Assembly: GCF_017968845.1 (NCBI RefSeq)
Contig: NZ_CP072876.1
Span: 1,860,001-1,924,000 of the forward strand
Source of the DNA: Microbacterium sp. NIBRBAC000506063
GTDB lineage: Bacteria; Actinomycetota; Actinomycetes; Actinomycetales; Microbacteriaceae
DNA length: 64,000 nt
Reading direction: 5' to 3'
This document shows positions 43,527 to 58,997 of this stretch, one piece after another. Made by a program: the position numbers and the translations under genes. The notes beneath the pieces are model-generated. The model saw only the letters and a list, made by a program, of their open reading frames with translations, was not told where the DNA came from and did no database searches. Each line of letters begins with the position of its first letter. Position 1 is the stretch's first letter.

Positions 43527-44326
43527 TCAGTAGCTGGCGCGGTTCTCGTCGGGGGCGCCGATGAAGCGTGACGCGAGCGCCTCGGAGGAGCGGGCGAGGA
43601 GGGCGACGTCGGCGCCCACCGCGACGAAGTCGGCGCCCTCTGCGAGATAGGCGTCCGCGGCGGCGGGGTCGAAGGCGTTCACCCCACGGGCTTTCCCACC
43701 TTCTTCGCGGCGGCGAAGACGCGGTGCACGGCGGTGACGACCTCGGGATGGGTCTGCTGTCCGAGGAGCCCCATGGAGGCGGCGAGATCCGAGGGGCCGA
43801 CGAAGACAGCGTCGACGCCGTCGACCGCGAGGATCTCCTCGGCCTTCACGACCGCCCCCGCGGTCTCGATCTGCACCGTCAGCGACACGTGCTCGGCGGC
43901 CTGCGCGAGGTAGTCGTCGACGCGGTTCCAGCGCGCCGAGCGGGCCAGGGCGCTGCCGACGCCACGACGCCCGCGCGGCGGGTAGTGCACGGCTTCTACC
44001 GCGGCGCGGGCCTCTGCGGCATCCGACACCATCGGCACGAGGATGTTCTGCGCGCCCACGTCGAGCACCTGCTTGATCGTGACGGTGTCATTGGCCGGAA
44101 CGCGCACGAGCGGGGTGATCGGGTAGGCGGCCACGACCTGGAGCTGCAACTGGATCGACTCGATCGTGTTCGGCCCGTGCTCGCCGTCGATGAGCAGCCA
44201 GTCCAGGCCCGAGCCGGCGCAGATCTCGGCGAGCACGGGTGATCCCGTGCATGCCCACATGCCGATCTGAGGGCGATCGGATGCCGCGAGCCGCTCGCGG
44301 AAGGTCGGTGCTAGACGAAGCGACAT
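43527..44326 (-). CDS. hpaI: HpcH/HpaI-family class II aldolase (4-hydroxy-2-oxoheptanedioate aldolase)
   Basis: About 266 residues. Last step of homoprotocatechuate meta-cleavage: 4-hydroxy-2-oxoheptanedioate is split to pyruvate and succinate semialdehyde. Motifs are IGMWACTGSPVLAEI, DWLLIDGEHGPN with the catalytic His, VRVPAND, ETAGAVVKAEEIL with the metal Glu, and VFVGPSDLAASMG with the metal Asp. One base is missing near 43683 (CCCC), restoring a C terminus ending at 43527. It overlaps hpaH by 16 nt and is last in the operon. Confidence 0.93.
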
Positions 44327-45098
44327 GTGATGGTTCCTCCCTCGCGGTAGTCGCACACTACCTCGTCACCGCGCTCCACCCACATCGGGCGGGTGAAGGA
44401 TCCCGCCAGGATGATCTCGCCCGCCTCGAGGCGCGCGCCGTGCTGATGGAACTTGTTCGCCAGCCACGCCACCCCGGTCGCGGGGTGCCCGAGGACGCCG
44501 GCGGCCACGCCCGTCTCCTCGATCTCGCCGTTGCGGCTGAGCACCCCCGGTACCCAGCGCAGATCGACCTCCTGCGGGTCCAGGTGCACGTCGCCGAGCA
44601 CCATCGCACCGTAGGCGGCGTTGTCGCTGATCGTGTCGACGATCGTGCGCCCCTCCAGCTCGATGTGCGAGTTGAGCACCTCGAGGGCGGGCACGGCGTA
44701 GTCGATCGCGGCCAAGGCGTCCTCGAGCGTGCAGTCGGGTCCTTCCAGCGGGTGCTTCAGGACGAACGCCAGCTCGACCTCGATGCGCACGTTCGCGAAG
44801 TCGTCGAAGGGGATCTCGGCGCCGGTGGCGTAGACGGTGTCGTCGAACATGACGCCGTAGTCCGGCTCGGTGATCCCCGTCGCCTGCTGCATGGCCTTCG
44901 ACGTCAGCCCGATCTTGCGACCGACGAGCGTGCGCCCGGCGGCGAGCTGCTGATCGCGCCATATGCCCTGCACGGCATAGGAGTCCTCGATCGTCGCCTC
45001 CGGGTAGCGTGCGGTGATGCGGGGATCAGCACCTTCGTGCGATCCGCCTCGGCGAGCTCCTCCGCGAGCTGCGCGATCACGTCGGTGGGCAGCGTCAC
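44311..45098 (-). CDS. hpaH: 2-oxo-hepta-3-ene-1,7-dioate hydratase
   Basis: About 262 residues of the hydratase/decarboxylase branch of the FAH superfamily (HpaH/MhpD). Motifs are EDSYAVQGIWRDQQLAAGR, GRKIGLTSKAMQQ, EPDYGVMFDD, VRIEVELAFVLKHPLEGP with the metal Glu pair, and GVAWLANKF. It adds water to 2-oxohept-3-enedioate, giving the HpaI substrate. GTG 45098 overlaps the hpaD stop by 4 nt. One base is missing near 45030 in the N-terminal region. Confidence 0.94.
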
Positions 45099-46231
45099 AG
45101 CTGGTTCCCCAGCTTGTACTCGGCCTCCTCGGGGCGGGTGTAGGAGAAGCCGTCGGCGCCGATCGTGACGGCCATCTCGCTGTCGTCGGTGCGGGCGACG
45201 ACCGGCTGCGGGTTGCCGTCGAGGTCGAGCACGAGGGACGCCTCGGTGTACCAGGACGGCACGACGGGGTTGCCCCACCAGTCGCGACGCTGGTTGTCGT
45301 GCACGTCCCAGGTGACGACGGGGTTGTCGGGATCGCCGGTGTAGTAGTCCTGCGTGTAGATCTCGACGCGGTGCCCGTCGGGGTCGCGCAGGTACAGGTA
45401 GAAGGCGTTGGAGACGCCGTGGCGGCCCGGGCCGCGCTCGATCGCGTCCGAGCGACGCAGCGCGCCGAGCTTGTCGCAGATCGCGAGGATGTTGTGCTTC
45501 TCGTGAGTGGCGAAGGCGACATGGTGCATGCGCGGGCCGTCACCGCCGGTGGCGGCGGTGTCGTGCACGGTGGGCTTGCGCCGCATCCAGGCCGCGTAGA
45601 CCGTGCCCGCCTCGTCCTGGATGTCCTCCGTCACACGGAAGCCGAGGTCCTGGTAGTGCTTGACCGCGCGGGGCACATCGGGGGTGACCTGGTTGAAGTG
45701 ATCCAGGCGCACCAGCTCGCCCGGCGTGTGCAGGTCGTAGCGCCAGGAGAGCCGCTCGACATGCGTGGTGTCGAAGAAGAACTCGTAGGGGAAGCCGAGC
45801 GGGTCGACCACGCGCACCGAGTCGCCGATGCCCGTGGTGAAGCCCTGCGGATCGCGGCGCACGTCGCATCCGATCTCCTCGTAGAAGGCGACGGCCTTGT
45901 CGAGGTCCTCAGCGCTGCGCACCCGATAGGAGAACGCGGCCACGGCGGCGATCGGTCCCTTGCGCAGGACGAGGTTGTGGTGGATGAACTCCTCGGTCGA
46001 GCGCAGGTAGATCGCCTCGTCGTCCTCCTCGGTCACGTACAGCCCGAGCACGTCGACGTAGAACTCGCGCGAGGCGGCGAGGTCGGTGACGACGAGCTCC
46101 ATGTAGGCGCAGCGGAGGATGTCCGGTGCCGGCGAGGTCGGGGTCGGGACGGGGTTGTCCGTCTGGATGGGCGCCTCCTGGCTCACGAAGAAGCCGGAGG
46201 AGGTGCGGGTCATCTCTTCTCGGTTGGTCAT
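45095..46231 (-). CDS. hpaD: 3,4-dihydroxyphenylacetate (homoprotocatechuate) 2,3-dioxygenase
   Basis: 378 residues, unbroken. A type I (vicinal-oxygen-chelate) extradiol ring-cleavage enzyme resembling the well-studied Brevibacterium fuscum enzyme. The 2-His-1-carboxylate metal site is visible as VRLDHFNQ, RMHHVAFAT and HRVEIYTQDYY. The C-terminal extension with WYTEAS covers the active site in that branch. It opens DOPAC to 5-carboxymethyl-2-hydroxymuconate semialdehyde. The stop overlaps hpaH; hpaE lies 16 nt upstream. Confidence 0.96.
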   Translation of the reverse strand: MTNREEMTRTSSGFFVSQEAPIQTDNPVPTPTSPAPDILRCAYMELVVTDLAASREFYVDVLGLYVTEEDDEAIYLRSTEEFIHHNLVLRKGPIAAVAAFSYRVRSAEDLDKAVAFYEEIGCDVRRDPQGFTTGIGDSVRVVDPLGFPYEFFFDTTHVERLSWRYDLHTPGELVRLDHFNQVTPDVPRAVKHYQDLGFRVTEDIQDEAGTVYAAWMRRKPTVHDTAATGGDGPRMHHVAFATHEKHNILAICDKLGALRRSDAIERGPGRHGVSNAFYLYLRDPDGHRVEIYTQDYYTGDPDNPVVTWDVHDNQRRDWWGNPVVPSWYTEASLVLDLDGNPQPVVARTDDSEMAVTIGADGFSYTRPEEAEYKLGNQL

Positions 46232-46247
46232 GGTCGCTTCCTTGCGT

Positions 46248-57364: not shown

Positions 57365-57396
57365 ATCCGCAACCCTAAGGGCCTGTGCTCCCCTCG

Positions 57397-57410
57397 TGCC
57401 CGATCGGGCA
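57397..57410. promoter_or_regulatory. 14-bp perfect palindrome between tetR and the permease gene
   Basis: TGCCCGATCGGGCA lies 33 nt upstream of the tetR start and about 83 nt before the permease ATG, with partly symmetric flanks. It differs in sequence from the TATCCA operators, so another regulator may bind it. Confidence 0.5.
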
Positions 57411-57492
57411 AGGGGTGTGCCGGATCAGACAAGTCGCGGGGCGGCCGCCGCGGGAGGATTCGAGGAACGTCACCCGAACGCAGGAGTTTTCC

Positions 57493-58997
57493 ATGAGTGC
57501 GAACACCGTCGCCACAGACACCACGGTCCGGCAGAGCCGCCGGCTGGGCGTCCCGGCGATCACCGTCATGATCATCGCGGCCTCCGCGCCGCTGACCGTC
57601 ATCGCCGGCGGCGCCACGACCGCCTACTCGGTCACCGGCTCCATCGCCGTGCCCGTCGGCTACATCGTCCTGGCGCTCGCGCTGGCGATCTTCGCGATCG
57701 GCTACGCCGCGATGAGCCGCTTCATCACCAACGCCGGGGCCTTCTACGCCTACGCCTCGCGCGGTCTCGGTCGCCCGACCGGGGTCGGCGTCTCGCTCAT
57801 CGCGCTCGTGGCCTACAACTGCATGCAGATCGGCATCTACGGCATGTTCGGCTTCCAGATCTCGATGCTGCTGGACGAGAAGCTCGGCTGGGACGTGCCG
57901 TGGTGGATCCCGATCCTCGTGTGCATCGTCGTGGTCGGACTCCTCGGCGTCAACCGCGTCGACCTGTCGGCGAAGGTCCTCGGGTCATCGTGCTGCTGGA
58001 GTTCGCGGCGGTCATCGTCTTCAACGTCGTCGCCTTCGCGAATCCCGCCGAGGGCTTCACCGCTGCCCCCATCTCGCCGAGCGCGCTGTTCGTGCCCGGG
58101 ATCGGTGCCGTGCTCGTCTTCGGCATCGCCGCCTTCATGGGCTTCGAGTCCGCGGCGATCTACGGCGAGGAGGCCAAGGACCCCAAGCGGACAGTGGCGC
58201 GGGCGACCTTCAGCGCCGTCGTCATCATCGGACTGTTCTACGCGCTGTCGTCGTGGGCGCTGGCGCTGGCGATCGGTCCCGAGAAGATCACCTCCGGCGG
58301 CATCACGATGGACGAGGCCGGTCCGCCGCTGTTCTTCACCTTCGTCGCCGACCGCCTGGGGCTCATCGTCGTGGACATCATGTCGCTGCTGTTCATCACG
58401 AGCCTGTTCGCCGCGCTCGTCGCCTTCCACAACGCCGTCGCACGCTACCTCTTCTCGCTCGGTCGCGAGCGGGTCCTTCCGCACGGGCTCTCGGCCGTGC
58501 GCCCGCGCCAGGACGCGCCCTGGGCGGGGTCGCTGACCCAGTCGGTACTCGCCGCCGTCGTGGTGATCGTGTTCGCGATCGCCGGTGCCGGGTCGGAGCT
58601 CGGTCCGCTCTTCCCCGTCGTCACCCTGTTCTCCTGGCTGACGAACACCGGCGCTCTCGGTCTCGTGCTGCTCATGGCCATCGTCTCGATCGCGGTGATC
58701 GGCTACTTCCGGCGCGATCCGAAGGACGTCGGGATCGTCGCGCGCGTCGTCGCGCCGATCGTGGCCTTCCTCGCACTGACGGTCGCGCTCGTGCTGATCA
58801 TCGCGAACTTCAACGTGCTGCTGGACCAGCCCGAGGCCAACGCCGTCACCTTCCTCCTTCCGGCGCTGGTGATCGTGCCGGGGATCCTCGGCATCGCCTG
58901 GGGCTTCTGGATGAAGCGGAACCGTCCCGCCGACTACGCGCGGATCGGTCACGGCGCCGACGACGAGGCGGCGACCCTCACCGAGATCGGGGACTGA
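57493..58997 (+). CDS. APC-superfamily amino acid/amine permease
   Basis: About 501 residues with twelve to fourteen hydrophobic segments. The first helix reads ITVMIIAASAPLTVIAGG, where the APC family binds substrate; FMGFESAAIYGEEAKDPKRTV is the characteristic helix 6 region. One base is missing near 57984. ATG 57493 has AGGAG upstream. It is divergent from tetR and near the monoamine oxidase operon, so it likely imports the amine or its parent amino acid. Confidence 0.92.

Follow-up and report, generated by a model that had tools for sequence, protein, structure and literature searches.

A stretch of 64,000 nucleotides from the chromosome of Microbacterium sp. NIBRBAC000506063, hereafter the window (positions 1860001-1924000 of a 3.04-Mb genome, G000 in our surveys, listed completeness 76.8%), contains an island at 43527..58997 in which a flavin monoamine oxidase (MAO) gene and its companions lie beside the hpa genes for meta-cleavage of 3,4-dihydroxyphenylacetate (DOPAC). 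The island probably turns both tyramine and dopamine into DOPAC and then opens the ring, a route that would include hydroxylation by a MobA-type FAD monooxygenase encoded elsewhere in the genome. An earlier note on this DNA had described the island, and that observation is confirmed: the named genes, their order and their strands are all as it gave them. Its interpretation as a whole is partly supported. The idea that amines are taken to DOPAC is likely, but the proposal that the amine is already dihydroxylated, with no hydroxylation needed, is not supported: a MobA-type gene is present in the genome, tracks hpaD among 247 genomes of the genus and 149 of the order, and has an operator core in common with the hpa promoter. 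"No HpaBC" should therefore not be equated with "no hydroxylation", and the probable substitute for HpaB is a larger find than the island itself. What the sequence itself provides is the content and order of the genes, the families they belong to, their linkage in relatives and the conserved motifs of their promoters; the pathway is proposed on that basis.

The ring-cleavage and amine-oxidase blocks

The identity of HpaD as given in the earlier note holds: the gene is intact and its product passes the TIGR02295 equivalog test (431.9 bits, cut-off 321.4). It also matches the homoprotocatechuate 2,3-dioxygenase of PDB 3ecj/1q0c, which we take to be the Brevibacterium fuscum enzyme, with 630 bits. 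Most of the other genes are frameshifted; their pieces were searched separately, and intact relatives stood in for some family tests. Scored as frameshifted pieces, the larger part of HpaI reaches 264.5 bits with TIGR02311 (cut-off 368.8) and that of HpaH 322.1 bits with TIGR02312 (cut-off 351.5). HpaE was recognised by tblastn to an intact relative only, as five pieces at 70-87%. A piece of the FAH-RraA fusion is over the NF009399 cut-off (499 vs 444 bits), and its RraA-like domain may be a decarboxylase or a second aldolase of the pathway. The piece of the MFS transporter is below the PF07690 cut-off, and its name rests on its place and on the similarity of intact relatives (71-82% to the MFS genes of four linked Microbacterium loci, 56-59% in Agromyces and Corynebacterium pelargi).

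In the amine block, the oxidase is of the flavin type, as had been claimed: it matches the flavin amine oxidase fold (PF01593), and its closest solved relative is the MAO of Corynebacterium ammoniagenes, to which it is 54-55% identical. The top nine rows of the structural search were all entries of that enzyme (PDB 8eef-8eeo), whose ligands among the entries matched are tyramine, dopamine, norepinephrine, octopamine, tryptamine and cadaverine. An assignment as putrescine oxidase was rejected; identity to that enzyme is only 23-24%, and the protein groups with the C. ammoniagenes MAO instead. The AraC regulator had been called FeaR-like, and this stands in so far as its best NCBIfam match is FeaR (NF007243; the fragment scores 83.8 bits and an intact relative 153.2). 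Both scores are below the equivalog cut-off of 199 bits, and by these scores the protein is FeaR-like only, not FeaR proper. For the aldehyde dehydrogenase (ALDH), neither the piece nor an intact relative reached an NCBIfam cut-off among the 25 families shown, and the test for the phenylacetaldehyde dehydrogenase StyD failed (356.7 and 313.6 bits in the intact relative, cut-offs 850 and 800). The earlier note placed this gene immediately after the hpa and MFS genes. The blocks are indeed adjacent, but a GlcD-like gene intervenes.

A candidate for the missing hydroxylase

The absence of HpaB from the window, already noted, extends to the whole genome as assembled: PF11794 and TIGR02309, searched through stop codons in an assembly listed as 76.8% complete, gave 0 matches, while the control genomes were matched. 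In the genus survey (G000-G034 and G073-G284; here and in the order survey, negatives that were not listed were read from gaps in the numbering), HpaB_N is over cut-off in 8/247 Microbacterium genomes, seven of them hpaD-positive (7/206); matches at E<=0.001 number 25/247. In the order it is found in 5/149 genomes, two of them hpaD-positive (2/40). HpaB shows no association with hpaD. Since hpaD is near-core in Microbacterium (206/247), most of the genus has hpaD without HpaB. Seven of the eight HpaB genomes of the genus (not G147) also carry both hpaD and the MobA-type gene.

Gene calling in 20 regions and 11 MAO loci revealed a recurrent FAD monooxygenase of ~620 amino acids in 18 of the 31 loci, or 16 genomes, as two pairs among the 18 are from the same genomes. 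Each of the 16 MAO genomes searched, a selection from 47, has a copy. In G000 the gene lies at C1:1618036-1619922, ~285 kb from hpaD and beside an IclR gene. At E<=1e-150 it is found in 211/247 Microbacterium genomes, comprising 203/206 with hpaD and 8/41 without (hand cross-tabulated). The hpaD-positive genomes lacking a match are G000, G077 (44% complete) and G284, and the hpaD-negative genomes having one are G026, G075, G140, G201, G211, G248, G273 and G278. In the order sample all 34 carriers (E<=1e-120) have hpaD, HpaD itself being found in 40/149 genomes, 38 of them over cut-off. Six of these 40 are without a MobA match: G000, whose gene pieces fall below the cut; G309 and G351, whose HpaD is below cut-off; and G347, G373 and G401, whose HpaD scores 324-331 bits (cut-off 321). 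The split of HpaD at "over 400 bits" in this survey was picked after the table had been seen.

The two genes are on one contig in 30 of the 34 carriers (the distance between them is <=10 kb in 24 and <=30 kb in 28, leaving G343 and G285 as exceptions; for G039 it was measured to the MobA copy that shares a contig with hpaD, although another copy scores better). Genera g9, g12, g15 and g23 each hold double-positive and double-negative species, and this co-variation within four genera argues against one inherited accident, with kinship not formally corrected. Fisher values for the association ignore phylogeny, and the mobA-hpaD linkage itself promotes co-inheritance. Six Microbacterium genomes (G000, G034, G081, G083, G104 and G114) are in both surveys.

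The closest solved relative of the MobA-type protein is 3-hydroxybenzoate hydroxylase (PDB 2dkh; 590 bits, nearly full length). The intact M. esteraromaticum protein P0001, as distinct from the broken copy of G000, has the domains FAD_binding_3 (PF01494) and Phe_hydrox_dim (PF07976) and is over the cut-off of NF006144, the NCBIfam phenol 2-monooxygenase (919 vs 560 bits). Its tracking of hpaD and the operator core common to both promoters make the MobA-type enzyme the likely 4-hydroxyphenylacetate (4-HPA) 3-hydroxylase that substitutes for HpaBC. If so, tyramine would work too, and it is at least as likely a substrate of the island as dopamine.

Promoter motifs

A predicted GntR-type operator, ATCATATACGATTT, lies in the divergent FAH/MFS promoter and is found with <=2 mismatches upstream of 25/26 fahN genes. 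A related site (<=3 mismatches) is upstream of 10/22 mobA and 10/17 iclR genes, several of the latter sharing the gap with mobA, and also of 1/11 tetR and 1/15 aldh genes; at the same stringency it is upstream of 0/26 hpaD and 0/19 araC genes. In the whole 64-kb window the core TATACGA/TCGTATA has a single occurrence, which is at the hpa promoter; in the 20 kb around the G000 mobA gene it likewise occurs once, as the palindrome TCGTATACGA, in the iclR-mobA gap that forms the mobA promoter. Across 1.45 Mb of loci the two 7-mers were counted 68 times, a figure that takes in the hpa and mobA promoters. Given the common core at both promoters, hpa and mobA plausibly share a regulator even though they are far apart in G000.

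The twin TetR operators of the earlier note were found again, upstream of mao. The first, CTATCCAATTGGATAG, is perfect and the second, CTATCCAGATGGATAT, follows it closely. The motif is present in 8 of the 17 sequences scanned (the window, L004-L009 and L045), always just upstream of mao, which suggests a TetR switch of its own for the amine block.

Linkage of MAO and hpa genes in relatives

Among named genomes, 46 loci with MAO relatives were found; the MAO alignment took in 27 sequences, the window and 26 of these loci. Within flanks of <=10 kb, by author-set identity cut-offs and with short loci included, at least two hpa genes are beside MAO in 7/46 loci: M. esteraromaticum, M. luticocti, M. 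arabinogalactanolyticum, M. elymi, two Agromyces and C. pelargi. The companions of MAO across the 46 loci are AraC (18), APC (14), ALDH (13), MobA-type (7), the thiamine pyrophosphate (TPP) enzyme described below (6) and GlcD-like (0). The arrangements differ. In M. esteraromaticum the MAO block is flanked by MobA-IclR on one side and MFS on the other; M. luticocti and M. elymi have it in the orientation opposite to hpa; in Agromyces humatus the order is MAO-AraC-ALDH-TPP-MFS-MobA; and in C. pelargi (L040) it is APC-MAO-ALDH-like-AraC-MobA-MFS-FAH, with hpa genes alongside, as might be expected if the unit had been transferred whole.

Within Microbacterium, MAO at E<=1e-80 is found in 14/247 genomes, six at >=76% identity (G000 included) and eight at 38-40%. 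All six of the close group have HpaD, and in five of them MAO and hpaD lie less than 12 kb from each other, at 8.7-11.1 kb. The linkage is far above chance, with shared descent not accounted for, and is favoured yet dispensable. The claim that the amine branch is joined to the DOPAC pathway is supported, both by the grouping of the oxidase with the C. ammoniagenes MAO and by the recurrence of the hpa linkage in differing arrangements.

The GlcD-like oxidase and the TPP enzyme

Between the MFS gene and ALDH, which it overlaps by 4 nt, lies a gene for a GlcD-like protein scoring 376 bits with TIGR00387 (cut-off 567.9) and 322 bits with glycolate oxidase (PDB 9qgz). It is found in 0/46 of the related MAO loci within flanks of <=10 kb; M. 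esteraromaticum (L121:4009) has a gene 40% identical to it ~11 kb past hpaI. It could hint at a 2-hydroxyacid (mandelate-type) side branch.

The TPP gene is just past the APC gene, outside the island, and recurs in relatives. Strong relatives are present in 159/206 hpaD-positive against 5/41 hpaD-negative Microbacterium genomes (hand cross-tabulated), the strong/weak split (E <1e-170, 164/193 matches) having been chosen after seeing the data. The window genome itself is below both cuts, and the matches in M. esteraromaticum (G033) and M. arabinogalactanolyticum (G145) are weak. In several listed genomes the relatives are only a few kb from mobA. The protein, of an acetolactate-synthase-like subfamily, meets no NCBIfam cut-off, and its structure model (predicted local distance difference test score, pLDDT, 74.5) gives a fold match that does not single out one reaction. 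4-Hydroxyphenylpyruvate oxidase (EC 1.2.3.13) requires TPP and FAD. The TPP enzyme is a candidate for that keto-acid step, a weaker one than the MobA-type gene is for the hydroxylase.

Proposed pathway and its alternatives

In the proposed pathway, the APC permease would bring in the amine, which MAO would convert to the arylacetaldehyde with release of H2O2 and ammonia. ALDH would yield 4-HPA from tyramine or DOPAC from dopamine, and the MobA-type monooxygenase, encoded ~285 kb away, would hydroxylate 4-HPA to DOPAC, standing in for HpaBC, which the genome lacks. HpaD, HpaE, FAH-RraA, HpaH and HpaI would then break DOPAC down, with succinic semialdehyde and pyruvate as the products. Expression of mao would be under TetR control, and that of hpa and mobA together under GntR control. 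The neighbouring TPP enzyme may feed the pathway from tyrosine by decarboxylation of 4-hydroxyphenylpyruvate. A broader proposal is that the genes of the hpaD region complete, from non-homologous parts, a Gram-positive homoprotocatechuate route for tyrosine and tyramine, with the MobA-type enzyme, a single-component FAD monooxygenase, replacing HpaBC order-wide as the 4-HPA 3-hydroxylase, the linked TPP enzyme as the orphan 4-hydroxyphenylpyruvate oxidase/decarboxylase and the MAO island as a plug-in through which some strains bring tyramine and catecholamines to this ring cleavage. We offer it tentatively, as a possibility somewhat short of an even chance.

Published growth data also count for the tyramine and dopamine reading. 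A report on Arthrobacter Rue61a records growth on 4-HPA, homoprotocatechuate and tyrosine, and no growth on phenylethylamine, 3-hydroxybenzoate or 4-hydroxymandelate (PMC3534580); what speaks for the reading is that 4-HPA and tyrosine are used and 3-hydroxybenzoate is not. Several observations weigh against the same reading. HpaB is over cut-off in G083, G123, G147, G205, G207, G229, G255 and G279, and Arthrobacter terrae, one of the 16 MAO genomes, has the protein too. The mobA gene of G000 is broken into four frameshifted pieces (61-84% identity). The nearest solved structure of the MobA-type protein is a 3-hydroxybenzoate hydroxylase and its NCBIfam model a phenol 2-monooxygenase, while the listed names are FAD-dependent monooxygenase, phenol 2-monooxygenase, pentachlorophenol 4-monooxygenase and 3-hydroxybenzoate 4-monooxygenase. 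The GntR-type site is upstream of 0/46 mao and 0/14 apc genes, and the TetR motif is nowhere but at mao in the 17 sequences scanned, so that the separate motifs, of the two examined, count against a single regulated unit. Within the fetched flanks 39/46 MAO loci have fewer than two hpa genes, and in M. nymphoidis (G099) MAO and hpaD are 867 kb apart. With only 6/247 genomes carrying it, this MAO is an occasional add-on in Microbacterium.

Some of these points favor other explanations. The earlier note's own model admits only dihydroxylated amines of the dopamine type to the DOPAC pathway, without hydroxylation; the genome lacks HpaB, the solved MAO homologue binds dopamine, and the MobA-type gene of G000 is both distant and in pieces. 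That gene is nevertheless present in G000 and in all 16 MAO genomes, tracks hpaD and shares the hpa operator core, and the solved MAO was crystallised with tyramine also, which makes the model unlikely. A different view is that the two blocks are mere neighbours, the amine module serving as a nitrogen source from several amines and hpa being an ancestral pathway for tyrosine and 4-HPA. The loci with fewer than two hpa genes in the fetched flanks, the gap in M. nymphoidis, the separate promoter motifs and the near-core status of hpaD beside a rare MAO all speak for it, and the solved MAO also holds cadaverine and tryptamine. We think it quite improbable in view of the linkage, in differing orders, in five of six Microbacterium, two Agromyces and C. 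pelargi, which is far above chance when shared descent is ignored.

It is also conceivable, but highly improbable, that the island serves phenylethanolamines, with MAO and ALDH taking octopamine or norepinephrine to D-hydroxymandelate, the GlcD-like oxidase producing hydroxyphenylglyoxylate and the TPP enzyme decarboxylating it to hydroxybenzaldehyde. The overlap of the GlcD-like gene, of a D-2-hydroxyacid oxidase family, with ALDH, the adjacency of the TPP and APC genes and the binding of octopamine and norepinephrine by the solved MAO are consistent with such a branch. However, the GlcD-like gene was found in none of the 46 related loci within the fetched flanks, the 40% relative of M. esteraromaticum lying beyond hpaI; the TPP enzyme follows hpaD without it; and hpaD would be left unexplained. 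The conversion of tyramine and dopamine to DOPAC followed by ring cleavage remains the preferred reading.

Assembly quality and surroundings

Frameshifts split most of the long island genes in this indel-rich assembly, the open reading frame pieces being in different frames: HpaI, HpaH, HpaE (~5), FAH, MFS, ALDH, AraC, TetR, APC and TPP are all in pieces (Table 1). The start of MAO too is probably broken by a frameshift, and the ATG at 56730 is in a different frame from the MAO body. Frameshift density is very high across the whole window, and the cause of the low listed completeness may be sequencing error rather than lost DNA. At 27491-29773 a ROK protein and an extracellular solute-binding protein are joined in one open frame, which may be a true fusion or the result of an indel that removed a stop.

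On the far side of hpaI are a serine hydroxymethyltransferase gene (39725-41170) and its neighbour, relatives of each of which were found in 11/31 Microbacterium and related loci. From this recurrence, the hpa block probably occupies its usual chromosomal site.

Table 1. Genes and predicted operators of the island and the adjoining TPP gene, in window coordinates.
Feature	Position	Strand	Remarks
hpaI, 4-hydroxy-2-oxoheptanedioate aldolase	43527..44326	-	frameshift near 43.7 kb; TIGR02311, PF03328
hpaH, 2-oxohept-4-ene-1,7-dioate hydratase	44311..45098	-	5' frameshift, start approximate; TIGR02312
hpaD, homoprotocatechuate (3,4-dihydroxyphenylacetate) 2,3-dioxygenase	45095..46231	-	intact; TIGR02295
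hpaE, carboxymethyl-hydroxymuconate semialdehyde dehydrogenase	46248..47739	-	~5 frameshifted pieces
GntR/FCD regulator of hpa block	47757..48422	-	PF00392, PF07729
FAH-RraA fusion, probable isomerase/decarboxylase	48419..49865	-	frameshifted, start approximate; NF009399
Predicted GntR-type operator, ATCATATACGATTT	49911..49924	-	divergent FAH/MFS promoter
MFS transporter, predicted importer	50004..51393	+	frameshifted; divergent from FAH-RraA
GlcD/D-lactate-dehydrogenase-type FAD oxidase, 450 aa	51454..52806	-	PF02913, PF01565
Aldehyde dehydrogenase, amine branch	52803..54318	-	frameshifted, start approximate; PF00171
FeaR-like AraC regulator	54429..55330	-	frameshifted, start approximate
Flavin monoamine oxidase (MAO)	55388..56730	-	PF01593; start uncertain
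Predicted TetR operator 1, perfect, CTATCCAATTGGATAG	56776..56791	.	upstream of mao
Predicted TetR operator 2, CTATCCAGATGGATAT	56795..56810	.	upstream of mao
TetR-family regulator	56814..57364	-	frameshifted; PF00440 40.1 bits
APC permease, predicted amine importer	57494..58997	+	frameshifted; divergent; PF13520 76.7 bits, C-terminal piece
TPP-dependent enzyme, acetolactate synthase/pyruvate oxidase superfamily	59037..~60682	-	frameshifted; PF02776, PF00205

Comparison with known systems

The Arthrobacter arilaitensis genome description gives the genes for 4-hydroxyphenylpyruvate oxidase and 4-HPA 3-monooxygenase as unlocated (PMC2991359), and GapMind 2022 did not cover the breakdown of tyrosine through 4-hydroxyphenylpyruvate oxidase, about which too little was known (PMC9007349). 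On genomic grounds, the island and its relatives supply a strong candidate for the hydroxylase and, for the oxidase, a weaker one; the MobA-type gene is the best genomic candidate for the missing monooxygenase. The MAO plug-in is of interest for what becomes of biogenic amines and catecholamines in soil and food.

The island resembles the known hpa meta-cleavage pathway in having HpaD over the equivalog cut-off and, as frameshifted pieces, probable homologues of hpaE, hpaH and hpaI, but differs in its fused FAH-RraA and in having no HpaBC. It also has a GntR/FCD regulator where E. coli W has the MarR-type HpaR (PMC7180172). The MobA-type gene can be compared with MobA of PDB 2dkh, presumably the Comamonas testosteroni enzyme. 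Residues H135, K247 and Y271, which we take to be substrate-binding, are conserved in the aligned Microbacterium copy, while Ile259 is His in 16/18 copies (position hand-counted). Unlike MobA, the gene is genomically tied to hpaD and shares the hpa operator core. As for the oxidase, what the island adds to the solved C. ammoniagenes MAO is the linkage of mao to hpa, with predicted TetR-type operators upstream.

In E. coli, FeaR, FeaB and TynA feed the Hpa pathway, and Pseudomonas putida U has tyn genes. The predicted route in Microbacterium is the same, from amine through arylacetaldehyde and arylacetate to DOPAC and cleavage, and the regulator is likewise FeaR-like and of AraC type. The island differs from both systems in using a flavin MAO instead of the copper amine oxidase; further differences are the additional TetR-type site at mao, the location of the amine genes next to hpa and a candidate hydroxylase of the MobA type.

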